Below are positions 15,846 through 41,000 of a stretch of DNA of 41,000 bases, piece by piece. Where the stretch lies: the IMG/VR virus record IMGVR_UViG_3300023116_000005, positions 1-41,000 of that record; one strand, given 5' to 3'. The stretch comes from a virus. The notes beneath the pieces were generated by a model. That model had not been told where the DNA came from. It worked only from the letters and a program-made list of their open reading frames with translations, and searched no databases. The first letter of the stretch is position 1. Every line of letters begins with the position of its first letter. The position numbers and the translations under genes are program-made.

Positions 15846-16571
15846 ATGCTGTTTGACTGGTTAATTCCGACGGTCATGCGCCTGGAGTCATTTTTCGCGC
15901 ACTTCAACGGCAACCCGCACCAGAGAGCAGCAATCCAGCAGTTACAGGAGGACATGCCGCCTGAGCTGTTGGATTCAAACGCTGAGTGGTTTCAGATTTG
16001 GAAAGCTGGCGGGAAGATTGTGCCGTTTGGGGTGCCGTACCTGCACCAGCTGGATCTGGAAGGTGGTGAGTACAAGTGCTTTACGACTGCGATGGCAATG
16101 GTCGCCAAGCACTACGGGGTTGTGGAGACGCAGAAGCAATATGACGACCTGAGGAGTCGGTATGGGGATACGACTGAGGTGATGGCTCAGGTCAAGGCGC
16201 TCCAAAGTTTGGAGTTGAGACCTGAGTTTGTGCAGAACGGGACGGTGGATTTGATTGAATCAGAGATTGACGCTGGCAGACCGATTGCTGTTGGTTGGCT
16301 GCACAGGGGTGACTTAAGCCGTGGTGAGCCGTTGACAGGTATTGGTCATTGGTCAGTGATTATTGGATATACAGAAAACTTTTTCATTGTGCACGACCCA
16401 ATGGGTGAGCACGATCTGGTGCGTGGATTATTGAGGGATGAGAATGGTGGGAACGCAGTCCACTACTCAAAAGAGGACTTCCTGTTTAGATGGGAAGTTG
16501 AAGGACCAGGCAGTGGGTGGGCGATGTTAGTTGACCCATTTCCGCCACCGATCACATTTGACAAGTTATGA
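15846..16571 (+). CDS. C39-like papain-fold cysteine peptidase, endolysin candidate
   Basis: The 241-residue protein has a peptidase C39-like (C39_2) domain at about 60-225: nucleophile Cys78 in EYKCFTTAMAM, His168 in GHWSVIIGY and Asp184 in VHDPMG. The first 60 residues form a separate helical region with no signal peptide or membrane segment. No peptidoglycan-binding repeat is seen. Such proteins occur in cyanophages and are sometimes proposed as cell-wall hydrolases. Its place beside small membrane proteins, and the absence of any other lysozyme or amidase in the genome, make it the best endolysin candidate. K also carries a wall peptidase but is a tail part. Confidence 0.82.
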   Translation: MLFDWLIPTVMRLESFFAHFNGNPHQRAAIQQLQEDMPPELLDSNAEWFQIWKAGGKIVPFGVPYLHQLDLEGGEYKCFTTAMAMVAKHYGVVETQKQYDDLRSRYGDTTEVMAQVKALQSLELRPEFVQNGTVDLIESEIDAGRPIAVGWLHRGDLSRGEPLTGIGHWSVIIGYTENFFIVHDPMGEHDLVRGLLRDENGGNAVHYSKEDFLFRWEVEGPGSGWAMLVDPFPPPITFDKL

Positions 16572-17723: not shown

Positions 17724-17975
17724 TCAACGGTTGTTGGTGGCAAACTCGACGTAGGTGGCGGCGATGATGCTTTCCATTTGCCGAGGGTCGAGATTCGAAC
17801 CCACGCGCCTTCTAATGCGAGCAACAGCTTTATGGAAGTCGTGAGGAGAAACAGCATTGCTGGTCAGCCGTTCGATAACCAATTCTGTCCGCGTTACTCC
17901 ACGCTGCTGTGCTTCAGCATCTAAACGCTCCACCAACTCGGCGGGCATGTTGACTTCAATTCGTTTTTTTGCCAT
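17724..17975 (-). CDS. Ribbon-helix-helix (CopG/Arc-type) regulator
   Basis: The 83-residue protein begins with KKRIEVNMPAELVERLDAEA and then QQRGVTRTELVIERLTS, a textbook RHH domain (strand, helix, turn with GVTRTELV, helix) in the first 40 residues. The C-terminal half is a basic helix region (FHKAVARIRRRVG). RHH dimers bind short inverted or direct repeats in the major groove. The gene lies 200 bp downstream of the symmetric TGGGAC array, so it is the first candidate to bind it; this is inference. It overlaps the upstream 61-residue gene by 20 bp. Confidence 0.85.
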   Translation of the reverse strand: MAKKRIEVNMPAELVERLDAEAQQRGVTRTELVIERLTSNAVSPHDFHKAVARIRRRVGSNLDPRQMESIIAATYVEFATNNR

Positions 17976-18141
17976 TGCGGGAGTTTACGCGAGGCTTTCT
18001 GGATCGCTTGCTGGTCTTCTTCGCTTGTTGCTTAGCGGCCTGCCGTTCCTTGTAGGGGTTTTGGCGTAGGCGCTCCAGGGTCTCGAGGTAGCCAGGCGGT
18101 TCAGGGATTCCACCTGCCTTGAGGATTTCAGTCCAGTTCAT
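17956..18141 (-). CDS. Small basic protein of 61 residues
   Basis: The product starts NWTEILKAGGIPEPPGYLET, then LERLRQNPYKERQAAKQQAK and a strongly Lys/Arg-rich tail. The PEPPGY segment suggests a defined N-terminal motif; the tail likely binds nucleic acid. AGGA directly precedes the ATG. It is the first gene after the TGGGAC array in the leftward direction and overlaps the RHH gene start, so the two are probably one operon. Confidence 0.65.
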   Translation of the reverse strand: MNWTEILKAGGIPEPPGYLETLERLRQNPYKERQAAKQQAKKTSKRSRKPRVNSRNGKKTN

Positions 18142-18173: not shown

Positions 18174-18355
18174 GTCCCAGCTAGGTCACTTTCCAGTGCT
18201 GGACTGGTGTTTTTGCTGGGACAAGCAGGTGAGACACGCGATAGGTGTCCCACCCTTCTTGGAATGCCAGCAAAGCTGGGACACTAGGTGCTTGTCCTAG
18301 CCTTGCGTCCCACCTTTGATCCCGCTCCAGGACGGGGATTTGGTGGAGTTGGGAC
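18174..18355. repeat. Symmetric six-copy TGGGAC array (candidate origin or operator)
   Basis: Perfect copies of GTCCCA / TGGGAC start at 18174, 18217, 18247, 18277, 18307 and 18350. Orientations alternate strictly and the spacings are 43, 30, 30, 30 and 43 bp, so the whole array has dyad symmetry about 18264/18265, where a small TGGAATGCCA palindrome sits. Read in the TGGGAC direction the wider consensus is about AAAGSTGGGACRC. Four copies lie in the 142-bp gap between the primase-helicase and the 61-residue gene, two in the primase 3' end where they fall in different codon phases. Function unproven: origin iterons, partition site or RHH operator. Confidence 0.8.
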
Positions 18356-20563
18356 ACGTTCCAGACCCTCTCCGCACGCGAGGACTGCTCTATACGACTG
18401 GAGCGTCTGACCGTTTCGTGATTGGTGCGTTTCATCGGTGACCTCGATAAGGCCCCGCTTGTGGAGTCTCTGGAGCGACTTACGGATGGCGGCTGCTTTG
18501 CCGATTAGTGGGTCGTTCGCCAGGTCTTCTGTGGTGCGAGACGCTGGGTGAACAGTCCGAAGCTTGTGAAGCACCCTGTCGCTCACAGACGCGGGGCTTG
18601 TGTTCGTTTTATCAAGCTCAGGGGTGTGGTCGCAAATGCTGAAGCTGAGGTCTTCCTGCATTTGCATGATCAGCTGAGTACCTGACCGTCCACTACGGGA
18701 CTTCTCGATGGTGATGAGACGGCTGTGCTTACCGACTCGAGCGGCCTCCTCATCTGACGGTTTGGAAAGGCTCCAGGTCTCGTCCACGGCGTCACGGATA
18801 GCGGAGGTGCCACGGAAGCCGCCGTTTTTGTTGGCGTGGTGAATGATGAGGATGGTGGACTCGAAGAGCTTGTCTTCGATGGGCTGACCGTTTTCGTCCA
18901 GGACAGGGTTGCCCTTTTCATCAAGGCGTTTTTTGCCGTTGCCGTTGTTGCGGGTCAGCCAGTAGAGGGGGCTGGCGAACTCAGACTTGTTTTCATCGAA
19001 AGCTTTGCCACCAGAGCAACCGATGAGGGAGTCGATGATCACGAGCTTGGGGAAGCAGCCGTGCTTCTTCTTCAGCTCCTGCATCAGGTTTTGGAACTGT
19101 GCGTAAGCCTGCAGTTGGAAGCCGGTTTGGATGTGGGTCTGGTCGTTGACGGGGAAGTCGACCTCTTGCAGCTGTTCCTTGATCTGCATGAGGGGCTGGT
19201 CACCGTTGAGGATCAGGACAGGTCCTTGCGTTACTGGAACGGGCTGACCGCGAACGATGAAGGGCTTGCCAACAGCGATGTGTTTTGCGAGCGCCCAAGC
19301 GGACATGGATTTGCCGTCACCACCAGCGCCGTAGATCAGGACAACAGAGGGGTGGGGGAGGACATCGGGGATGAGGTAGTCACGACTGAGGTCGCGCTCC
19401 ATCAACTCCTCTACGGACATGAGTTTTTCGGTGGAGTGGAAGCCCTGGTTATCGACGAGGAGTTTTTCGAGAGCAGCTTGATCCCGATAACCCGCCTGTA
19501 GAGCAAGAGCGTTGAGGCGGTAATTAACTTCAGCTGGATTGTCGAGCTGGAGGATTGCCTCACCACGCTTAATGACTTCATCGAAGGAGAGGAGAGCGAC
19601 TCTGGATTCAATGACTTGGCGCTTTTCAGCGGCCTCTACGATCTCGAGCGTTTCTTTGGAGAAGCGCCGACGGTCCTTGTCTTCTCGGTCAGCAAGCCAG
19701 ATGAGGGTGCCGAAGCCGATACCACCGCTTTTGAAGGAGTACCAGGGCTCCTCACAGGGGTTGATGTCTTCAGACCAGTCAGCGGCGTAGTCAGCGTCTT
19801 CAGCGGACCAAGCGGACCAGAGCATGAGACCCCGTTCGTTTGGCATGGCGGAGTTGATTGCCATACCGATGCGGATCCAGTGCTCACGACTGCCTGACCC
19901 TTGGGGCGTAATGACGCTGAGGCAGTCAGAGATGATTTCAGCGATCTCGTCTTCGGTGCGATCGGAGAAGTCGAGGTCTTTTTTGGTGACGTGAGGGGTT
20001 GGCTCCCGCATTTCAGCGATCAGCCAGTCAGGAGCGACGGGGATGTTGTTGAGGTCGCCTTTGAACTTGTATTGACCTGGAGCGCAGATGCCTTCCTTGC
20101 CGGGATAGGCACCGAAGATGACGCCCTGACGCCCCCAGAGGATCTCGTAGTCGCCATTGGAGCGTCCGTCGTCCTTCCGTAAGCCATGACCCTTTACTTC
20201 GCCCCACAGCGCCTCTGGGATGCGGAAGAGGTATTTGGCTGCGTTGGGACGTGTGCTGGTGATGCAGGGAGCGCCGTTTAGGGATTCACCCCATTCACGG
20301 ACCCAACGTTTGTGGTTGGCGTCAACGTCGAGGATGACGATGCCGTTACCGCGAATGCCAGACCAGACACCGACAGCTTGAAGGTCGGTGTTGCGTTGCA
20401 TAGCGAGAGCAACGTCAGCCGGACCAAATTTGCGATCCCAGGAGTCCTCGAGAGGATTTTTGCCTGTGGCGTGTTTGCCGGAGACCATTACCGCGCCTTT
20501 GCGGTAGATGGGTCCATATACCAGTCCTTCGGGGAGGGCCTTGACGAACTCTTGAATGTTCAT
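18284..20563 (-). CDS. Primase-helicase: PrimPol, PriCT-2 and RepA/DnaB-type ATPase
   Basis: This 759-residue replication protein has three parts. The N-terminal PrimPol domain (about 1-190) has VILDVDANHK with Asp79 and Asp81 and the GDYEILWGRQGVIFGAYPG segment. A PriCT-2 domain follows (about 205-290, HWIRIGMAINSAMPNERG ... FGTLIWLAD). The AAA_25/RecA-like ATPase has Walker A GAGGDGKS (412-419) and Walker B KLVIIDSLIG (506-515). A winged-helix-like C-terminus (about 675-740) may bind DNA. It should prime and unwind DNA at the phage origin. The usual His of the PrimPol TPSGGxHxYF motif is not evident (TRPNAAKYLF). No phage polymerase is present, so elongation is likely by host enzymes. Confidence 0.9.
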   Translation of the reverse strand: MNIQEFVKALPEGLVYGPIYRKGAVMVSGKHATGKNPLEDSWDRKFGPADVALAMQRNTDLQAVGVWSGIRGNGIVILDVDANHKRWVREWGESLNGAPCITSTRPNAAKYLFRIPEALWGEVKGHGLRKDDGRSNGDYEILWGRQGVIFGAYPGKEGICAPGQYKFKGDLNNIPVAPDWLIAEMREPTPHVTKKDLDFSDRTEDEIAEIISDCLSVITPQGSGSREHWIRIGMAINSAMPNERGLMLWSAWSAEDADYAADWSEDINPCEEPWYSFKSGGIGFGTLIWLADREDKDRRRFSKETLEIVEAAEKRQVIESRVALLSFDEVIKRGEAILQLDNPAEVNYRLNALALQAGYRDQAALEKLLVDNQGFHSTEKLMSVEELMERDLSRDYLIPDVLPHPSVVLIYGAGGDGKSMSAWALAKHIAVGKPFIVRGQPVPVTQGPVLILNGDQPLMQIKEQLQEVDFPVNDQTHIQTGFQLQAYAQFQNLMQELKKKHGCFPKLVIIDSLIGCSGGKAFDENKSEFASPLYWLTRNNGNGKKRLDEKGNPVLDENGQPIEDKLFESTILIIHHANKNGGFRGTSAIRDAVDETWSLSKPSDEEAARVGKHSRLITIEKSRSGRSGTQLIMQMQEDLSFSICDHTPELDKTNTSPASVSDRVLHKLRTVHPASRTTEDLANDPLIGKAAAIRKSLQRLHKRGLIEVTDETHQSRNGQTLQSYRAVLACGEGLERVPTPPNPRPGAGSKVGRKARTST

Positions 20564-20592
20564 TTACTTTGAAGATGGTGTGCAGCCACTGG

Positions 20593-20627
20593 AAGCCCTT
20601 AGGGAAGTAGCCAATCCCTGAGGGCTT
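20593..20627. other. Strong 13-bp hairpin between divergent replication genes
   Basis: AAGCCCTTAGGGA (20593-20605) pairs with TCCCTGAGGGCTT (20615-20627) over 13 bp with one G-T wobble and a 9-base loop. No T run follows on either strand, so it is not a standard terminator. It lies in the 153-bp gap between the leftward primase-helicase and the rightward SSB-like gene, upstream of the rightward -35. It would be in the primase mRNA leader only if leftward transcription starts beyond it. Confidence 0.7.
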
Positions 20628-20644
20628 TCCCAATGTATGGGAAC

Positions 20645-20673
20645 TTGACAGGGTGGCATCCCAGACGTAGCCT
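20645..20673 (+). promoter_or_regulatory. Rightward early promoter
   Basis: A perfect -35 TTGACA (20645-20650) is followed after 17 bp by TAGCCT (20668-20673). The block TTGACAGGGTGGCA is identical to that of the leftward promoter at 26253-26281. An inverted repeat TGGGA (20638-20642) / TCCCA (20659-20663) brackets the -35. The leader to ATG 20717 would be about 37 bases. Confidence 0.7.
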
Positions 20674-20716
20674 GTTGAAGCGCCGTCACTGGCGTGCAAC
20701 AACGATAGGCCCATCC

Positions 20717-21331
20717 ATGACGATGAAACTGCCCCAGGCGTTCCTTGATCGCTTGGAAGAGGCGGACCAACCCCAGACGAATCCGTATCTGCGATATACG
20801 GCACTGGAGTCAGGCACCTCAGCTAATTTTTCCCTCCTCGAAAAGGACCCTTTCTGCTATTACCTCGTGTGGGCAGTAGCAAAAGATGGCGGCAAGAAGA
20901 AGCCTTTCCGTTTCTTGGACGAGCCCAGCGATAAGGACATTGAGCTTGAACTGGGACGTGAGTACGCCCGCGATCTGAACTACGAGAAGACCGGAGTTCG
21001 CAAGCCTGACCTGTGCTTCACCTGGCCTGTTTACAACTGGGATCTGAAGGAAGTTCAGATTTTGGAAGTGAGCCACGCATCTTTGCGTAACCAGTTCGCC
21101 AAGTTTGGTCTGAACAAGAAGTACAAGAACCTGCTGAGCTGGGACTTTGAGCTGACCAAGGTGGTCACCGACCGTACCCGTTACGACCTGATGATCGTTC
21201 CTCGCGATGACGAGGAGCACGATGAGGACGCAATGGAGAAGGCTTGGGACGAAGTTCAGCAAGCTGGTTTTGAGCTGAAGGAACTGCTTCGTAACGAGGC
21301 AGGTGCAGATCCCTTCAAGCCTGAAAGTTAG
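20717..21331 (+). CDS. Putative single-stranded DNA-binding protein
   Basis: The start is ATG 20717 (MTMKLPQAFLDRL), behind the promoter at 20645; an in-frame ATG at 20633 would lie upstream of it. The 204-residue product is acidic at its C-terminus (PRDDEEHDEDAMEK and further Glu/Asp), as in many SSBs. The middle part, with ILEVSHASLRNQFAKFG and then WDFELTKVVTDRTRYDLMIV, resembles an OB-fold ssDNA-binding family I recall from other marine phages. It is the first gene of the rightward replication operon, alone before a strong terminator, as expected for a protein needed in quantity. The SSB role is inferred. Confidence 0.75.
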   Translation: MTMKLPQAFLDRLEEADQPQTNPYLRYTALESGTSANFSLLEKDPFCYYLVWAVAKDGGKKKPFRFLDEPSDKDIELELGREYARDLNYEKTGVRKPDLCFTWPVYNWDLKEVQILEVSHASLRNQFAKFGLNKKYKNLLSWDFELTKVVTDRTRYDLMIVPRDDEEHDEDAMEKAWDEVQQAGFELKELLRNEAGADPFKPES

Positions 21332-21354
21332 GCTAAATTTTGGGTGGAACGGTG

Positions 21355-21383
21355 GAGGGCGTTGCAGGACGCCCTCTTTTTTT
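21355..21383 (+). terminator. Rho-independent terminator after the SSB-like gene
   Basis: GAGGGCGT (21355-21362) pairs perfectly with ACGCCCTC (21369-21376), followed by seven Ts. It isolates the SSB-like gene from the downstream exonuclease operon, which has its own possible promoter at 21476. Confidence 0.92.
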
Positions 21384-21475
21384 GTCCATTTACTTTTGCC
21401 ATTGAGTGACATTGACTGCCAAGTAATGACACCACTAATTGATGCTTGTGTTACAAATCCGCTGGCTTTCTTTTG

Positions 21476-21484
21476 TGGTATAAA
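21476..21484 (+). promoter_or_regulatory. Possible extended -10 promoter
   Basis: TGGTATAAA gives an extended -10 (TGn plus TATAAA) 48 bp before the ATG of the 207-residue gene and 92 bp after a strong terminator. No good -35 is visible at 17 bp, which extended -10 promoters can tolerate. Support comes from the need for a new promoter after the terminator. Confidence 0.5.
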
Positions 21485-21531
21485 TGGCAGGTCATCCCAG
21501 ATGACCCCATTTCACATGCAAACGCCCATTC

Positions 21532-22155
21532 ATGGCACAAGAGCAAACGCCTAAGCGTTGGAGAGGTCTCGCCAAGATCGTCAAGATCATCAAAAAGACC
21601 GACAACTATTATTTTTGGGTGCGAGTCACCGACGATCCCCACGGCGACAGTGAGCTTTTAGAGGGAGCTTGTTTTTTCAGGGAGGCCATGTCGCATGGCT
21701 GGATGAAGAAAGTGTTGAAGCAAGGCGACGTGATTGCCGTTCAGCTTCCACCAAGGCTTGGCGATTCATCTTGGATGATGTATTGCGCTCCGAATCACGA
21801 ACAGCCAGAGCTGTATAAGCCGATGATTCGTCAGTTTTTAGAGGAAGCTGAGCGTCGCGACAAGGAGTGGTCGATAGAGCATCAACGTCGTCAGCAAGCT
21901 GCGGAAGCGAAAGCTGATGAGATAGAGGAGCGCCGTCGGTTAGCGCAGGAGGAGTCCATTCAGAAGACTTTGGACATTCATCCGATGCGAATTTCGAAGC
22001 AAGGTGTGAGGGTGCAATGCACGCTTACGCATGAGGAGATCAAGTTGCTTGAGCAGCAAGCAGCGGCCAACAACATCAACGTGAGTGATCACAGGTGGCG
22101 TGGCCAGTACATCCGGCACTTGATTATGAGATCCCTCAAAAGGCAGGCAGTTTGA
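21532..22155 (+). CDS. Hypothetical DNA-binding protein with coiled coil and RHH-like C-terminus
   Basis: The 207-residue protein has an N-terminal beta-rich domain (WRGLAKIVKIIKKTDNYYFW, GDVIAVQLPPRLGD, about 9-85). A long charged helix rich in Glu, Arg and Gln follows (about 98-150). The C-terminal segment VQCTLTHEEIKLLEQQAAAN ... YIRHLIMRSLKRQ (about 158-205) looks like a ribbon-helix-helix domain. The combination suggests a DNA-binding protein of replication or regulation. It lies between the SSB-like and exonuclease genes. Confidence 0.72.
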   Translation: MAQEQTPKRWRGLAKIVKIIKKTDNYYFWVRVTDDPHGDSELLEGACFFREAMSHGWMKKVLKQGDVIAVQLPPRLGDSSWMMYCAPNHEQPELYKPMIRQFLEEAERRDKEWSIEHQRRQQAAEAKADEIEERRRLAQEESIQKTLDIHPMRISKQGVRVQCTLTHEEIKLLEQQAAANNINVSDHRWRGQYIRHLIMRSLKRQAV

Positions 22156-22194
22156 TTACTCCTAATTAGGCTGCTCTTGGAGCGCTGACTGCTA

Positions 22195-22368
22195 ATGGCA
22201 CCTGAGATTCCCGAGACGATCACTCAGACCCTGGAGGACGGGTGTGTTTGTGTGATTGTTGGTGACGTTACGGGTGTTGTTAGCAGCTTTCATCTGGTAG
22301 AACCCAAGGCCAATCAACTAAGGAAGGTGTGGCTTGACCGTTACAGCGAGTACGACGATGACGAGTGA
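22195..22368 (+). CDS. Small protein of 57 residues
   Basis: ATG 22195 opens a frame reading MAPEIPETITQTLEDGCVCV, VGDVTGVVSSFHLVEPKANQ and a tail with YSEYDDDE. The beginning forms a beta-rich small domain and the end is acidic. It overlaps the exonuclease start by 11 bp, fixing the exonuclease start at 22358 and supporting coupled translation. Unknown function; it may bind or regulate the exonuclease. Confidence 0.7.
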   Translation: MAPEIPETITQTLEDGCVCVIVGDVTGVVSSFHLVEPKANQLRKVWLDRYSEYDDDE

Positions 22369-23173
22369 CAAGCAGGACGCGTTGGCGTCGTTGTATAGCT
22401 GGACCCTGGAGCGAGATGACAGCGGACCGTTTAGGGTGTATAAAGATGATGAGGGACAGGAGTACCACTCGGTCACTCATATCCTGAAGAACACTGCGCC
22501 TGAGGAACAGAAAGCTTCCTTAGCTAGGTGGTCTGCGCGTCCAGGTAGTGAGATTGAGCGTCAGTTGGCGTGCGATCGAGGGACGGTCGTGCATGAGAAC
22601 TGCGAGTATGTACTCAAGACTGCATCCAAGCTTGTCCGTCACAGCGCCAATGCTCGTAATACCTGGCGTGTGTATGGGGATGGCTTGGCTCGGGCACCGA
22701 AGTCAGTTGTTAGCTGGGCGCTCAAGAAAGCTATTAAGGGAGCCCCTGAAGTTCCGTGGGCAGCCCGTGAGCACGCCCGAGGTTTATCAGGATGGCTTGG
22801 ATCTGGAGCGGTAACGGCCATTCATGCGTCGGAATTCAGCGTGTTCCACAGTGACGGGTGGGCAGGCACTGCTGACGCTTTGATCGATACGGAGTATGGC
22901 TTGACGATCTGCGACTTCAAGACGACAGGGAAGTCAAAGGACAAGCCTGAGAAGTTCATGAGAGACCACCAGGACCAGCTTGCTGCGTATTCGTTAGCGA
23001 TGAAGCAGCGGAGTGGGATTGTGGTTGATGCTGGAGCGGTGGTGATCGCGAAGGGGAATGGCGAGGTGCAGGTGAGGATGTTGAGTGAGCTAGAGATGAG
23101 GGGAGCGGAGTGTCGATGGCTGGAGCGCCACGACAAGTACAAGGCGATGTTGGAGCTGGGTGAGGTTGCATAA
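22358..23173 (+). CDS. RecB-like PD-(D/E)XK exonuclease
   Basis: The 271-residue protein carries the nuclease motifs in order: RGTVVHE with His79 (motif I), GTADALID with Asp173, the D-x-K pair Asp186-Phe-Lys188 in CDFKTT, and Gln207...Tyr211 in HQDQLAAYSLAM. This is the RecB/Cas4/lambda-exo type fold seen in phage recombination exonucleases (PDDEXK_1). It probably processes double-strand ends for recombination-dependent replication, with the SSB-like protein as partner. No separate annealase is recognised. The start is ATG 22358; an in-frame TTG at 22334 is less likely. Confidence 0.9.
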   Translation: MTSDKQDALASLYSWTLERDDSGPFRVYKDDEGQEYHSVTHILKNTAPEEQKASLARWSARPGSEIERQLACDRGTVVHENCEYVLKTASKLVRHSANARNTWRVYGDGLARAPKSVVSWALKKAIKGAPEVPWAAREHARGLSGWLGSGAVTAIHASEFSVFHSDGWAGTADALIDTEYGLTICDFKTTGKSKDKPEKFMRDHQDQLAAYSLAMKQRSGIVVDAGAVVIAKGNGEVQVRMLSELEMRGAECRWLERHDKYKAMLELGEVA

Positions 23174-23177
23174 AAAA

Positions 23178-23218
23178 GGGGCTGCCCAGGCCCCCTAGAT
23201 CTCCTCCGATCTAGTTTT
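23178..23218. terminator. Double hairpin at convergence of the two early operons
   Basis: GGGGC (23178-23182) pairs with GCCCC (23190-23194). Directly behind it CTAGATC (23195-23201) pairs with GATCTAG (23208-23214) followed by TTTT. On the other strand the run of As at 23172-23177 gives a T tract after the first hairpin. The site can therefore stop transcripts from both sides. The stop codon of the leftward 50-residue gene is part of the second stem. Confidence 0.85.
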
Positions 23219-23347
23219 ACCGTCCTGAAGTTGCTTTAACCATTTGCATGGTTTGGCTTTAGCTTTCCAGTTAGGTGGCGGTTCGGGGAGGGCCAGCTGA
23301 TCAAAGAACTGTTGGATGCGTTCTTGTTCAGTGCCGTGAAAGCGCAT
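23195..23347 (-). CDS. Last gene of left operon, 50 residues
   Basis: Reads MRFHGTEQERIQQFFDQLAL, then PEPPPNWKAKAKPCKWLKQL and QDGKTRSEEI. A Pro-rich linker joins two short helices. The ATG overlaps the upstream stop (TGATG). It is helical and basic in the second half. No family recognised. Confidence 0.68.
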   Translation of the reverse strand: MRFHGTEQERIQQFFDQLALPEPPPNWKAKAKPCKWLKQLQDGKTRSEEI

Positions 23348-23505
23348 CAGTCGTAGTCAGTGTTACCTCTACGGGCTTCAAGGTAACGCTGTCTGGCGTA
23401 TTCACGCATGTTGCGTCGATCTTGTTCGCGGTTGCGATGGATGGGAGGCGGTCCTGGGATGAGGGGTTTGAAGTTATCTGGAGCGTAGGTTTTAGGAGTA
23501 GCCAT
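23347..23505 (-). CDS. 52-residue small protein of left operon
   Basis: Reads MATPKTYAPDNFKPLIPGPP, then a strongly charged Arg-rich helix with HRNREQDRRNMREYARQRYL and an acidic end. The gene abuts its upstream neighbour (23506) and overlaps the downstream start. The Pro-rich start and basic helix suggest an interaction or nucleic-acid-binding peptide. No family recognised. Confidence 0.68.
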   Translation of the reverse strand: MATPKTYAPDNFKPLIPGPPPIHRNREQDRRNMREYARQRYLEARRGNTDYD

Positions 23506-23724
23506 TTACGAGGCATCGGAGTGATGGACGTAGTTTTGGCGGTAGGCGAGTGACTCTCGCGTGAAGGTATTGCGAGGGTGACTGAGCACAGCTTCAAACG
23601 CCTTTTCAACTTCCTGCCATGACACGCATTCGAGGAGAGCTAGTCGAGTGAGGCGGTCAAGCTCTTGGATTTCTGGAGCGTTGGGGAGAGGTTTAGCGAG
23701 TTTGCGAAGGGTGTGAATGTTCAC
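23506..23724 (-). CDS. 72-residue helical protein of left operon
   Basis: It starts at GTG 23724, overlapping the upstream stop by 4 bp (GTGA). The product (NIHTLRKLAKPLPNAPEIQE, LDRLTRLALLECVSWQEVEK) is almost entirely helical, with a tail FTRESLAYRQNYVHHSDAS. No known domain. Confidence 0.7.
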   Translation of the reverse strand: MNIHTLRKLAKPLPNAPEIQELDRLTRLALLECVSWQEVEKAFEAVLSHPRNTFTRESLAYRQNYVHHSDAS

Positions 23725-23945
23725 TGAAGGTGAGGGGAGTATTGAGGCGTGGGATCGTAGTCAACGATGCCTAGGAGGAGTTCTTTGGCTTCATGGAGGT
23801 TTTCCTCAAAGCCAAGGAACATTTGGTCCATGATGTGGCGCTTTTCTTCGCGCTGAATGATTTCGTCAAGCTCTTTAGCGATCTCCTCAACGCGTGACCA
23901 ATCTTGGATGCGTTGAGAGATTGCTGGAGCGTTTTGGTTAATCAT
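23721..23945 (-). CDS. 74-residue acidic helical protein of left operon
   Basis: The product (RIQDWSRVEEIAKELDEIIQ, REEKRHIMDQMFLGFEENLH) is a charged helical protein with probable coiled-coil character and a Pro-containing tail. It overlaps the upstream gene by 8 bp and the downstream gene by 4 bp. No known domain. Confidence 0.7.
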   Translation of the reverse strand: MINQNAPAISQRIQDWSRVEEIAKELDEIIQREEKRHIMDQMFLGFEENLHEAKELLLGIVDYDPTPQYSPHLQ

Positions 23946-24096
23946 CGAGTTGATCTAGTAGGTGGTCACCTGGGAAGAAGTCTTTTGAGGGGTTTGAGAT
24001 GCGAAGGGGGACCCACCTGCCGTTGGTGAGGCGATGTAGGACCCCATCTTCAGCCAACCAGTAGTCACCTTCATGTGCATTGGTTGGCATTCCCAT
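23938..24096 (-). CDS. 52-residue small protein of left operon
   Basis: Reads MGMPTNAHEGDYWLAEDGVL, HRLTNGRWVPLRISNPSKDF and ends HLLDQLDD. It looks like a small beta domain with WLxxDG and GRWVPL strands. The first ATG (24096) is 2 bp past the upstream stop at 24099; ATG 24090 is an alternative. Confidence 0.7.
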   Translation of the reverse strand: MGMPTNAHEGDYWLAEDGVLHRLTNGRWVPLRISNPSKDFFPGDHLLDQLDD

Positions 24097-24098
24097 CG

Positions 24099-24350
24099 CT
24101 ATGGACACTCGTCTGGCGACAGGGTAATCCAGTCGTGATGATCGTCTAGGATGCCTTCTACAGCTTCCCAGGTGGGGGGTTCTGCTTCATCCCAGATGAC
24201 ACTGGAGCGGCAGTAGCCAGGCCCCCACTCCTCAGGTTCTTCCCTAGTAGCTGGGAGAGTCATGATGGCGTCCTCAACGATGGCAATGATGTTGAGGTAG
24301 TTCGAGGAGGAATCGAAGGAGTAGGAGTGAAGTTGTGGGTAGGTGTTCAT
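24099..24350 (-). CDS. 83-residue acidic protein of left operon
   Basis: The product is acidic (EEPEEWGPGYCRS, WDEAEPPTWEAVEGILDDHH) with a Ser/Asn-rich start. Small acidic phage proteins sometimes mimic DNA or bind host enzymes; this is only a possibility here. ATGA overlap with the upstream gene at 24347-24350. Confidence 0.7.
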   Translation of the reverse strand: MNTYPQLHSYSFDSSSNYLNIIAIVEDAIMTLPATREEPEEWGPGYCRSSVIWDEAEPPTWEAVEGILDDHHDWITLSPDECP

Positions 24351-24670
24351 CGGAGTTTGAGGAGTTTTTGACTGATGTTGGTGATTTCGCGAGAGAGTTC
24401 GATCACGACCTTGCGATCACCGTCGGCTTCTGCTTCTGCTTGGAGGTGTTTGAGCTTTTCCTTTTGCTCCTTTAGCTCTGTTTGGTACTCATCAACGGAG
24501 TAGAGCTGGAACGGAGCGGGTTGTTCGCGTTCGACCTCTTTGACGTAGCGGTAGCCAGTGGAGGGAGGGACATCGTGGCAATCCTTGAGGTAGTCAACGA
24601 TCTCCCTTTTTTCCATGCCATCGGTTTGGAGGTCAGTGATGACAGCACGGATCTCTTCAGTTAACGCCAC
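24347..24670 (-). CDS. Helix-turn-helix protein with coiled coil
   Basis: It starts at GTG 24670. Residues 17-45 (DGMEKREIVDYLKDC, VPPSTGYRYVKEVE) look like a helix-turn-helix of the kind used to sort through DNA in resolvases and small terminases. The C-terminal half is a charged coiled coil (ELKEQKEKLKHLQAEAEADG). At 107 residues it could be a transcription regulator. It resembles small terminase DNA-binding halves, but a better terminase small subunit exists at 27943-28356. Confidence 0.7.
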   Translation of the reverse strand: MALTEEIRAVITDLQTDGMEKREIVDYLKDCHDVPPSTGYRYVKEVEREQPAPFQLYSVDEYQTELKEQKEKLKHLQAEAEADGDRKVVIELSREITNISQKLLKLR

Positions 24671-25152
24671 TCACCGTCTCCCTTTGCTTTACGGAGCATG
24701 TCTCGCTCTTGAGGGAGGACGATGCCTACACCAGGATCTTTGATCCTCAGGCAGAGGTAGGAGTTGAGGTTGATCTCCTTGGTCATGAGGAAGATGCGGA
24801 AGGACTCAAACACCTCGTAGGGGAGGTCTAGAGCTTGGCTGTACTGGGACGCCTCCACGTCACCCCACCACCAGACGGAGCGACCACCTGAGGAGTCAAC
24901 CCAGTGGAATTTGAAGCTATCGAGGGTGGAGTTGAACGCTTCCACCTCTTTATCGAGGGAGCGATCGATCACTAGGACCTGAGGCCATCTGGTGCGTGGA
25001 TACCACCAAGACTGTGAGTAGCCCCAAGGTTCCCCACGAAGTTTGCAAGCGTCAATGGCGCGTTGAGCGCGAAGCATGACGACTTCTTTGGTTTCACCGT
25101 GAAATTCTGCTCGACCTGCGTAGACGGTCCAGCGCATAACGGGTTGAGTCAT
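24661..25152 (-). CDS. Hypothetical protein of 163 residues
   Basis: The start is ATG 25152, an ATGA overlap with the upstream stop. The product is rich in Trp (WGYSQSWWYPRTRWPQVLVI, SGGRSVWWWGDVEASQY) with alternating strands and helices and no membrane segment. It is the largest protein of the left operon. No family recognised. Confidence 0.72.
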   Translation of the reverse strand: MTQPVMRWTVYAGRAEFHGETKEVVMLRAQRAIDACKLRGEPWGYSQSWWYPRTRWPQVLVIDRSLDKEVEAFNSTLDSFKFHWVDSSGGRSVWWWGDVEASQYSQALDLPYEVFESFRIFLMTKEINLNSYLCLRIKDPGVGIVLPQERDMLRKAKGDGEWR

Positions 25153-25334
25153 AGGGCCCAAGAGTTGCGGAGATTGTTTCGGGTTGACTGGTACGCCTGA
25201 CGGAGTGCAGTTTCGCGGTCGTTCATCCGTTTAAGGATGGTGTCGACCATGGCGCGATGGCGTTTGTACTCTTCATCGGTTTTGGCATGGATAGCGAGAT
25301 CCATAGCCCGCTCGAGGAGTTCTTGGTTCGTCAT
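25149..25334 (-). CDS. 61-residue helical protein of left operon
   Basis: Starting at ATG 25334 (ATGA overlap with the upstream gene) it reads MTNQELLERAMDLAIHAKTD, then KRHRAMVDTILKRMNDRETA and a basic end. The longer open frame upstream to 25373 is inside the previous gene. All-helical, no domain recognised. Confidence 0.7.
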   Translation of the reverse strand: MTNQELLERAMDLAIHAKTDEEYKRHRAMVDTILKRMNDRETALRQAYQSTRNNLRNSWAL

Positions 25335-25591
25335 GGCTGAGGGTTTTCGTTGATGAACTCTTTGATTTGGCAAAGGGTGATGAGTTCATCGAGGAGCTTG
25401 TCGATGTGATCGTCTTCTTTGAAGCGAATGGGGTGGCCTTGGTCATCTTTGCGATACCACTGCTGTTCACGATCAGTGAAGTAGAAACGCAAACCTTCTA
25501 TGAGGAGGAGGGAGAGCATTTCCTGGGGCGACCTGAGTTCAACGAGGGAAGCTTCAGAGAGTGCTGCCTGCTGTGCGGTAGTGAGTTTCAT
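25331..25591 (-). CDS. 86-residue hypothetical protein of left operon
   Basis: The product (LTTAQQAALSEASLVELRSP, LSLLLIEGLRFYFTDREQQW, IDKLLDELITLCQIKEFINE) is mostly helical with a short aromatic strand. No domain recognised. It is spaced 8 bp from the DNA-binding gene upstream. Confidence 0.7.
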   Translation of the reverse strand: MKLTTAQQAALSEASLVELRSPQEMLSLLLIEGLRFYFTDREQQWYRKDDQGHPIRFKEDDHIDKLLDELITLCQIKEFINENPQP

Positions 25592-25599
25592 GTCGTTTC

Positions 25600-26022
25600 T
25601 CAGTGAGAATTCTCAGAACGGAAGTAGGCGCGGAGTGCTTCGAGGTTCCAGTAGAAGCGGTCTCCCACTTTTTTGAAGTGGATGCCCTTGGTGAGCTTGC
25701 CGGTGTCCTTGCGGTTGTAGAAGCGCTTTGAATCGATGTTTAGCGCCCTTGCGACCTTGCGGATCTCATAGAAGCCATCGTCTTCCTGGGGCGCGTTAAC
25801 GGTCTTCTGGGGCGGTTGACGCTTGATGACCTTGGGAGTTTGGCAGTCCTCAAATTCGCGAAGGATGCCAGTGATGACGGCATAACGATCATTCACCACG
25901 TCGGAGGTGGTTTCAGACCATTCAGCACCAGTGTTCATGTCAGAGGCCAGATCATCCCTGAGTTTTTGGAGCGTGCCTTTAATGATCGCCAGCTGGTCGT
26001 TGTTGAGGGTGATGACATTCAT
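25600..26022 (-). CDS. Excisionase/MerR-like DNA-binding protein
   Basis: The 140-residue product has an N-terminal helical part (QLAIIKGTLQKLRDDLASDM) and a basic linker (KVIKRQPPQKTV). The C-terminal 60 residues, with FYEIRKVARALNIDSKRFYN, RKDTGKLTKGIHFKKVGDR and FYWNLEALRAYFRSE, have the winged-helix layout of excisionase or phage HTH proteins. It is the second gene behind the left promoter and palindrome, a usual place for an early regulator. No integrase is present, so a regulator is more likely than an excisionase. Confidence 0.75.
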   Translation of the reverse strand: MNVITLNNDQLAIIKGTLQKLRDDLASDMNTGAEWSETTSDVVNDRYAVITGILREFEDCQTPKVIKRQPPQKTVNAPQEDDGFYEIRKVARALNIDSKRFYNRKDTGKLTKGIHFKKVGDRFYWNLEALRAYFRSENSH

Positions 26023-26025
26023 GAC

Positions 26026-26202
26026 TCAGTTGGCCTCGATGTAGGAGTGATCAGCGGTGGTGATGGCGCAGTGGTATTTGGTCCACATGCGAGCAGTGAT
26101 CCATTCACCGTCAAAGCGGGGGAAGTCCATCACGCTTTGATTGGCGCGATCCATGGCACATCTGGCCAGGTTGATGCGATCGAAGAGAAGAAGCTGTTTC
26201 AT
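26026..26202 (-). CDS. First gene of left operon, 58 residues
   Basis: Reads MKQLLLFDRINLARCAMDRA, then NQSVMDFPRFDGEWITARMW and TKYHCAITTADHSYIEAN. It starts about 45 bases behind the predicted transcription start. It is a compact small protein with two Cys and several aromatics. No family recognised. The downstream gene follows after 3 bp. Confidence 0.72.
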   Translation of the reverse strand: MKQLLLFDRINLARCAMDRANQSVMDFPRFDGEWITARMWTKYHCAITTADHSYIEAN

Positions 26203-26227
26203 TGGAGCGTGTGCAGCGCTTTCATGA

Positions 26228-26247
26228 GTAGCAGTGTGGACTGCTAC
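26228..26247. promoter_or_regulatory. Perfect 8+8 palindrome at the left promoter start site
   Basis: GTAGCAGT (26228-26235) and ACTGCTAC (26240-26247) are perfect inverted copies separated by GTGG. The palindrome overlaps the expected +1 of the leftward promoter (about 26246), the classical place for a repressor site. A hairpin in the 5' end of the mRNA is the alternative. Confidence 0.75.
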
Positions 26248-26252
26248 CCGCT

Positions 26253-26281
26253 AGGATATCGATGAACTGCCACCCTGTCAA
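26253..26281 (-). promoter_or_regulatory. Leftward early promoter
   Basis: On the minus strand TTGACA (26276-26281) is separated by 17 bp from TATCCT (26253-26258). It shares the 14-base block TTGACAGGGTGGCA with the rightward promoter at 20645. It drives the twelve-gene left operon from 26202 to 23195. Confidence 0.8.
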
Positions 26282-26482
26282 ATGTCGTTGATCAAGTCCG
26301 CCATTCAGGATGCTGCCTTTCAAGACCAACCCCGGCCTGCTTTCACTGATCAACAGTGGAATCACCTTCTAACCACCCTCCAGAACGCGATTCATGATCC
26401 CTCGAGCCATTCAAGGACTGACCTACAGCATCTCCACGCCTGGCTGACAAGGATTAGATCCACTGGTACGGCTGACATCTGA
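26282..26482 (+). CDS. 66-residue protein, divergent from the left operon
   Basis: The ATG directly abuts the -35 of the opposite promoter. The product (AIQDAAFQDQPRPAFTDQQW, NHLLTTLQNAIHD, LQHLHAWLTRI) is helical and rich in Gln and His. A strong terminator follows 11 bp after the stop, which supports a single-gene transcript. No obvious promoter of its own is seen; it may be controlled by the same palindrome. Function unknown. Confidence 0.68.
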   Translation: MSLIKSAIQDAAFQDQPRPAFTDQQWNHLLTTLQNAIHDPSSHSRTDLQHLHAWLTRIRSTGTADI

Positions 26483-30193: not shown

Positions 30194-30534
30194 TGGCTAC
30201 CACCGTCAAGCGCTTCGCCAACACGGTCGAGCACCACGAATCCACCGCACTTACGTCTGCGGACGATGCATTCGAGGTGTCCTGCCACTCCGACAACTAC
30301 ACCTTTTTACTCAAATCCACTGGCGCGGCGTCGTTTGTTGTCGCGCTTGAAATGTCCGCTGCTGGTGCAGCGAGCGATTATTTCGCAATTGACAGCAACA
30401 AGACCATCAGCGCCGCAGGCAACTACGATTTTTCCTATACGGGCATCCCTGCAGGTAGGGTCCGCTGTCGCATCGTGTCCGTCACCTCTGGCACACCGGA
30501 TCTTGAGCCTCAAATTGTCGTCCGATACCCGTAA
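30193..30534 (+). CDS. Virion-associated 113-residue protein, paralog A
   Basis: The product shares a fold and many positions with the next gene: VEHHEST, DDAFEV, a SxxF strand, SKTI/NKTI, YTGxPAxRxRxRI and SGTP. It looks like a small beta-sandwich, possibly a head-decoration or head-fibre protein. Both copies are 113 residues. The function is inferred from position in the head module. Confidence 0.75.
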   Translation: MATTVKRFANTVEHHESTALTSADDAFEVSCHSDNYTFLLKSTGAASFVVALEMSAAGAASDYFAIDSNKTISAAGNYDFSYTGIPAGRVRCRIVSVTSGTPDLEPQIVVRYP

Positions 30535-30539
30535 AAACG

Positions 30540-30881
30540 ATGGCCGTTACTATTGCTCGCGGCACCAATCTGGTCGAGCACCACGAATCAACGCCTTTGA
30601 CGGCAGTTGATGATGCTTTTGAAGTTCACGCTGATAGCAGCGAGTTCTGCTTTGCAGCCGTAGTCACTGGTGGAGCTAACTTCACGCTGGCCTTCGAGAC
30701 TAACTTCAACGGCGGCAGCGAGTGGTTTGAGGTTGATACCAGCAAGACCATTAACACCAACGGTCAAAAGATCTGGTTTTACACCGGCAAGCCCGCTAAT
30801 CGCATCCGAATGCGGATCTCGGCCATTTCTTCTGGTACGCCCAGTGTCATACCCCACATCGGAGTCGTTTATCACGGCTAA
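30540..30881 (+). CDS. Virion-associated 113-residue protein, paralog B
   Basis: A tandem relative of the previous gene, separated by 5 bp, with the same length and motif order (VEHHEST, DDAFEV, TSKTIN, YTGKPANRIRMRI, SGTP). At DNA level GGTCGAGCACCACGAATC is shared (near 30225 and 30570). The rest has diverged, so the duplication is old or the copies are under different selection, as for two decoration proteins. Confidence 0.75.
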   Translation: MAVTIARGTNLVEHHESTPLTAVDDAFEVHADSSEFCFAAVVTGGANFTLAFETNFNGGSEWFEVDTSKTINTNGQKIWFYTGKPANRIRMRISAISSGTPSVIPHIGVVYHG

Positions 30882-40687: not shown

Positions 40688-41000
40688 TGGCTACCTTTCC
40701 GTCAATCACGCCAACCTACGGCGCACAAAAAAGCAGTCAGCCCACCATCCGCGCCACGCAGTTCGGTGATGGCTATCAGCAACGTGTCACTTTCGGACTT
40801 AATCAAAACCCGAAGCAGTGGTCACTGACCTGGAACGTATCCGAGACTGACGCGGACACGATCGAAGCGTTCCTTGACGCACGAGCTGCGGACGCTGCCA
40901 GCTTTGACTGGATCCCCATTGACGAAGACAACACCTACAAGTGGATTTGCCTGGAATGGAGCAAAACAATCCCGTATGTGAACCGCGCCACGATTACAGC
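40687..41000 (+). CDS. Minor tail protein M, N-terminal part (continues at base 1)
   Basis: ATG 40687 reads ATFPSITPTYGAQKSSQPTI, then RATQFGDGYQQRVTFGLNQN and QWSLTWNVSETDADTIEAFL, with the TxFGDGYxQR motif that marks lambda gpM-type minor tail proteins (PF05939). The frame runs open to the window end and, by the 127-bp repeat, continues to 155. It overlaps the tape measure stop by one base. Confidence 0.93.
   Translation, partial: MATFPSITPTYGAQKSSQPTIRATQFGDGYQQRVTFGLNQNPKQWSLTWNVSETDADTIEAFLDARAADAASFDWIPIDEDNTYKWICLEWSKTIPYVNRATIT
40874..41000. repeat. Right copy of exact 127-bp terminal direct repeat
   Basis: Identical to 1-127. The length 127 is a common maximal k-mer in short-read assemblers, which supports an assembly overlap of a circular or circularly permuted genome rather than a biological terminal repeat. 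Confidence 0.95.

Follow-up and report, generated by a model that had tools for sequence, protein, structure and literature searches.

A predicted divergent promoter hub and a probable small antisense RNA between the replication genes of an uncultured phage lineage

The closest analogue of the locus analyzed here appears to be the CopG/RNAII control of plasmid pMV158, where CopG and the 48-nt RNAII, which consists of a 5' tail and a terminator hairpin, jointly control repB (PMC4485353). In control of this type, a ribbon-helix-helix (RHH) repressor binds the -35 of the rep promoter and the RNA inhibits translation. The known bacterial bidirectional promoters are built differently, with a symmetrical shared -10 element and starts 7-25 bp apart, most commonly 18 bp (PMC10268837, PMC12825309). 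In the lambda pO/oop system, a promoter that opposes the transcription of the replication region gives a short antisense transcript (PMC3985674). A literature search turned up no description of the phage group examined here, nor of such an arrangement in a phage. The statements on transcription, RNA and regulation made below are predictions from sequence.

Gene layout and the predicted divergent promoter hub

The window, that is, the whole 41,000-nt stretch of viral DNA that was analyzed, encodes TerL, portal, capsid and tail proteins and thus comes from a tailed phage. Positions 1-127 are repeated exactly at 40874-41000, and this 127-bp direct terminal repeat suggests that the genome is complete, circularly closed and 40,873 bp long. 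Another, imperfect direct repeat of 68 nt (71%) is located at 30211-30278 and 30558-30625, 347 bp apart, within adjacent small genes that precede the portal gene. Named phages show no DNA-level similarity to the window, and Rfam gave no match in the window or in four relatives.

The rightward operon next to the primase-helicase gene begins with the gene of a 204-aa protein, followed by those of a 207-aa protein, of a small protein and of a PD-(D/E)XK exonuclease (Table 1). It faces a leftward operon of small genes, and the two meet at a double hairpin (-20 kcal/mol, z -2.8); in this respect, the preliminary description was accurate, the gene order being convergent and the hairpins real. Sequence searches on the identity of the 204-aa protein gave no match, and no similarity to it was found in named phages; for the primase, only three records matched, at about 26%. 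The predicted structure of the 204-aa protein (pLDDT 87) aligns with 1gpc (and 2a1k), the T4/RB69 gp32 cores, with Z of 9.5 over 155 residues, above the rows for unrelated structures; Foldseek alone gave no significant match. Because of this alignment with gp32 cores, the protein is tentatively denoted SSB. A 61-aa gene of unknown family (17956-18141, minus strand) lies between the RHH gene and the primase gene and is present in 58 relatives.

Table 1. Genes and predicted control elements of the replication region and the facing operon, in window coordinates
Feature	Position	Strand	Details
RHH gene (CopG family) near primase, candidate regulator	17724..17975	-	PF01402 above cut-off; in 51 loci
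Primase-helicase gene	18284..20563	-	domain matches PriCT_2 and AAA_25
P_A, predicted antisense promoter	20541..20570	+	-35 TTGACG in first primase codons, 18 bp, -10 TACTTT abutting primase ATG
15-bp hairpin ending predicted antisense RNA	20591..20629	+	-29.1 kcal/mol, z -3.3
P_pri, predicted divergent primase promoter	20632..20659	-	-10 TACATT 20637-20632, -35 ATGCCA 20659-20654, 16-bp spacer
P_SSB, predicted promoter	20645..20673	+	-35 TTGACA 20645-20650, 17-bp spacer, -10 TAGCCT 20668-20673, predicted start ~20680
Hairpin at predicted 5' end of P_SSB transcript	20680..20697	+	covariation, folding
204-aa gene, first of rightward operon (tentatively SSB)	20717..21331	+	gp32-like fold in predicted structure
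207-aa protein without known family	21532..22155	+
PD-(D/E)XK exonuclease	22358..23173	+
Double hairpin	23178..23213	.	hairpin 1, leftward-operon terminator; hairpin 2 with TTTTA, rightward operon
Leftward small-gene operon	23195..26202	-	includes HTH-like protein 25600-26022
Hairpin at predicted 5' end of leftward transcript	26226..26249	-	10-bp stem, -18.2 kcal/mol, z -3.4
P_left, predicted promoter	26253..26281	-	-35 TTGACA 26281-26276, 17 bp, -10 TATCCT 26258-26253; kept in L122 and L204

Searches with the 204-aa protein yielded 76 viral loci and one genome contig, and 62 distinct upstream sequences, anchored on TTGAC, were compared. These relatives are not independent samples, so that the counts overstate the evidence. 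Of the 73 loci examined, counting the window, 71 have P_SSB; among the distinct sequences, 50 have the 17-bp spacer and 12 a spacer of 18 bp. SSB itself is mostly only about 45-60% identical across the relatives that share the hub layout.

The -35 box of the predicted primase promoter, P_pri, is positioned face to face with that of P_SSB, 3 bp away. The P_pri -10 occurs as TANNNT at a fixed offset in 62 of 62 distinct sequences, with variable middle bases (TAGGAT in 35, TAAGAT in 9, TAGAAT in 5, and others), and its -35, at 16-bp spacing, has at least 4/6 matches in 40 of the 62, compared with about 8 expected. The versions found in relatives include TTGACG, TTGACC and TTGCCT, whereas the ATGCCA of the window matches at only 4/6 positions; the facing boxes give TTGAC-N5-GNCAA. 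Thus, a divergent pair of predicted promoters with facing -35 boxes at fixed spacing is found across the lineage, with predicted starts about 55 bp apart, and the site at 20645 appears to be the rightward half of a hub from which the primase gene would be read leftward and the SSB-exonuclease operon rightward. With only 3 bp between the facing -35 boxes, RNA polymerases at the two promoters should be mutually exclusive, which would couple or balance the synthesis of primase with that of SSB and exonuclease.

The 14-bp block shared with the leftward promoter

The preliminary description drew attention to a 14-bp block, TTGACAGGGTGGCA, common to P_SSB and P_left. This block indeed occurs in exactly two copies in the window, at 20645-20658 (plus strand) and 26281-26268 (minus strand), both with a -10 at 17 bp (TAGCCT and TATCCT, respectively). 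Among the 28 TTGACA hexamers in the genome, these are the only ones with TANNNT at that distance; a third, at 16558, has TANNNT at 16 bp. Repeats of 14 nt or more are frequent in the window (nine inverted pairs and 15 families of direct repeats), so that an exact 14-nt inverted pair alone is not unusual and is at chance level, but its placement at both promoters is not. The probability that the same eight bases follow the only two promoters of the TTGACA-17-TANNNT form is about 1.5e-5 under equal base frequencies and, by a post hoc estimate, about 1e-4 after allowing for three promoters. There is no similarity between the two promoters beyond the 14 bp. A collection-wide search for the 14-mer matched more than 118 stretches, about the number expected by chance at that scale, and is uninformative.

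Among the 62 distinct upstream sequences, the exact block is confined to the nearest relative, L122 (86% identity), in which it is exact at both promoters, and to near-identical contigs. Elsewhere, the bases after TTGAC at P_SSB vary widely and, where conserved, spell the -35 of the divergent primase promoter; in none of the more distant relatives was the locus's own extension found repeated at another promoter. The leftward promoter could be followed in one further relative, L204, which was found through a leftward-operon gene and was the only new locus in the search for relatives of that operon. There, TTGACA, TATCCT and a palindrome at +1 are kept, with a spacer of 18 bp, and TCCCATCT stands where the window has GGGTGGCA. 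Because P_left of L204 lacks the extension, the exact extension is not required, even among close relatives.

At 20645, the 14-bp identity partly overlaps the predicted primase -35. This overlap accounts for that copy only, because at 26281 there is no divergent -10 in register; a P_pri-like divergent promoter at this site was considered and rejected, the in-register TGATCA not being a -10. The identity at 26281 may reflect an operator common to both sites or a local copying event in the lineage. The ATG of a 66-aa gene (26282-26482, plus strand) abuts the -35 of P_left; this gene keeps its position in L122 and is retained at a distance of 3 bp in L204.

One explanation, with somewhat less than an even chance of being correct, is that the eight shared bases arose by chance or because one promoter was locally copied onto the other, and that the host sigma factor simply reads both promoters, no shared regulator being involved. 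The abundance of 14-nt repeats in the window, the abrupt end of the similarity at 14 bp and the loss of the extension in L204 are all consistent with this explanation, but the low estimated chance of identity at these particular positions and the retention of both copies in L122 are harder to accommodate.

The single factor envisaged in the preliminary description, binding the block at both promoters and switching both operons together, is rather unlikely. The agreement of the only two sites of this form in all eight following bases, exact in L122 as well, is compatible with such a factor, and so is the conserved gene of a CopG-family RHH protein. Furthermore, an operator-like 13-bp palindrome, GGGWTGNCAWCCC, is present without mismatch in P_SSB of L123 and in P_left of L204, each of which has a further, weaker copy near +1; however, these very sites were the source of the pattern, and the window copies match it poorly, with two (20650) or more mismatches, so that it is a weak lead only. 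Against the factor is also the fact that the extension is kept neither in other relatives nor at P_left of L204. The two proteins put forward as binders fit poorly. The 207-aa protein was rejected as the common factor: it has no Pfam match, and no counterpart of it was found in L122, which has kept both blocks. The HTH protein has only 45% identity in L122, where both 14-mers are identical. The CopG-family RHH protein would be a better candidate than either. Of the proposed coordinated switch, what stands is the pair of strong sigma-70-type promoters, the convergent operons and a shared block that is beyond chance within the lineage and exact at both sites in L122, whereas the 8-bp extension is not supported as a deep common-factor site, given the variation after TTGAC. 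Taken together, the comparisons indicate that the shared block is a minor, lineage-specific detail, and that the promoter at 20645 belongs to a predicted compact control hub between the replication genes.

The predicted antisense RNA and the leader hairpins

A third predicted promoter, P_A, is located in the primase start region and would run rightward. Its -10, TANNNT, is found beside the primase start codon in 59 of 59 sequences, and its -35, TTGACG or TTGACA, at 18 bp in 51 of the 59. This -35 falls within codons, so that selection on the protein could account for part of its conservation; the valine codon at this position is GTC in 54 of 60 sequences, compared with 41% in the rest of the primase gene. 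Downstream of P_A is a 15-bp hairpin in which 9 of 10 pairs show double changes; it is more stable on the plus strand in 46 of 51 cases (G-U pairs, 121 vs 30) and is followed by a T-tract in 56 of 62 sequences. The window, L122 and L123 retain the hairpin but have lost the T-tract, so only the other relatives provide evidence for termination of the RNA. In relatives, the predicted RNA is 48-67 nt long (roughly 50-65 nt) and would be complementary to most of the primase leader. These features point to a probable small antisense RNA between the replication genes. In most relatives, this RNA, ending in hairpin and T-tract, should damp translation of the primase in the manner of plasmid antisense RNAs; in the window, which lacks the T-tract, termination may be inefficient and transcription may continue into the SSB operon. 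The alternative without an antisense RNA gene, under which the hairpin and T-tract would only give the primase mRNA a 5' hairpin or stop antisense transcription from reading through, would fit a primase start at the hairpin base that makes this mRNA hairpin-led like the two others, but is improbable, considering the stability bias toward the antisense strand, the T-tract in terminator position and the promoter aimed at the hairpin in all 59 sequences.

Covariation supports the hairpin with which the P_SSB transcript would begin: 92.3% of the cells are paired, there are 26 double-change cells compared with 8.6 in shuffled alignments, and the covariation score is 0.379 compared with 0.229 (0 of 500 shuffles; slid controls at most 0.088). 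The window's own hairpin, taken alone, is not unusually stable (z -0.8). The variable length of the loop is more in keeping with an RNA hairpin than with a fixed operator. The hairpin of the leftward transcript is kept in L122, where a T-A pair of the stem is changed to C-G. A strict scan for promoters followed by hairpins gave 81 sites, compared with 16.7 expected, 49 of these being P_SSB itself. Minus-strand TTGACA promoters followed by hairpins of 7-10 bp are also found about 2.6 kb upstream of P_SSB in two relatives (L169:3300 and L174:3472). In the SSB leaders of six relatives (L177, L179, L189, L192, L193 and L196), repeated units, CGACAACC / CGAGAACC / CGAGACAC, separate the +1 hairpin from the start codon and possibly provide an unstructured leader for autoregulation. 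The +1 hairpins of the rightward and leftward mRNAs themselves probably serve 5'-end protection or autoregulation.

Altogether, we favor, with a probability of roughly 0.7, a model with a divergent primase/SSB hub, an antisense promoter and 5' hairpins, in which the leftward operon would have its own separate promoter, P_left, of similar build.

Comparison with known systems

A more specific and quite speculative extension of this model is plasmid-like replication control in an uncultured phage lineage, in which interlocked -35 boxes would set primase against SSB and exonuclease, the antisense RNA of about 50-65 nt would damp primase translation, and a CopG-like RHH protein would act on the -35 palindrome. 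If this is the case, a widespread family of uncultured phages possesses a compact replication-control module best known from plasmids, and provides a case in which the setting of phage replication by antisense RNA and promoter interference can be tested, with the shared 14-mer as a small part of the module.

As in pMV158, a short RNA is predicted that would be antisense to the leader immediately before a replication gene and consist of an unpaired 5' tail and a single terminator hairpin, and a CopG-family RHH gene is located nearby. This antisense anatomy, predicted from sequence, is seen in most relatives but lacks the T-tract in the window. Unlike the plasmid, the phage would target a primase-helicase, its RHH gene is located downstream rather than upstream of the primase gene, and both inhibition and binding are predictions here. 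The hub shares with bacterial bidirectional promoters divergent starts from one locus and the expected competition between polymerases, but has separate -10 elements, facing -35 boxes and predicted starts farther apart. Lambda pO/oop is a looser parallel, likewise with a short antisense transcript in the replication region; however, oop is antisense to cII, in another gene arrangement and without facing -35 boxes. T4 gp32 autoregulates via a leader with 5' structure; the putative SSB has a gp32-like predicted fold and a leader with predicted 5' structure but no detected sequence similarity to gp32, and its autoregulation is suggested by analogy only. By comparison with these systems, the hub would be a variation on known kinds of control, namely a divergent promoter and antisense regulation.
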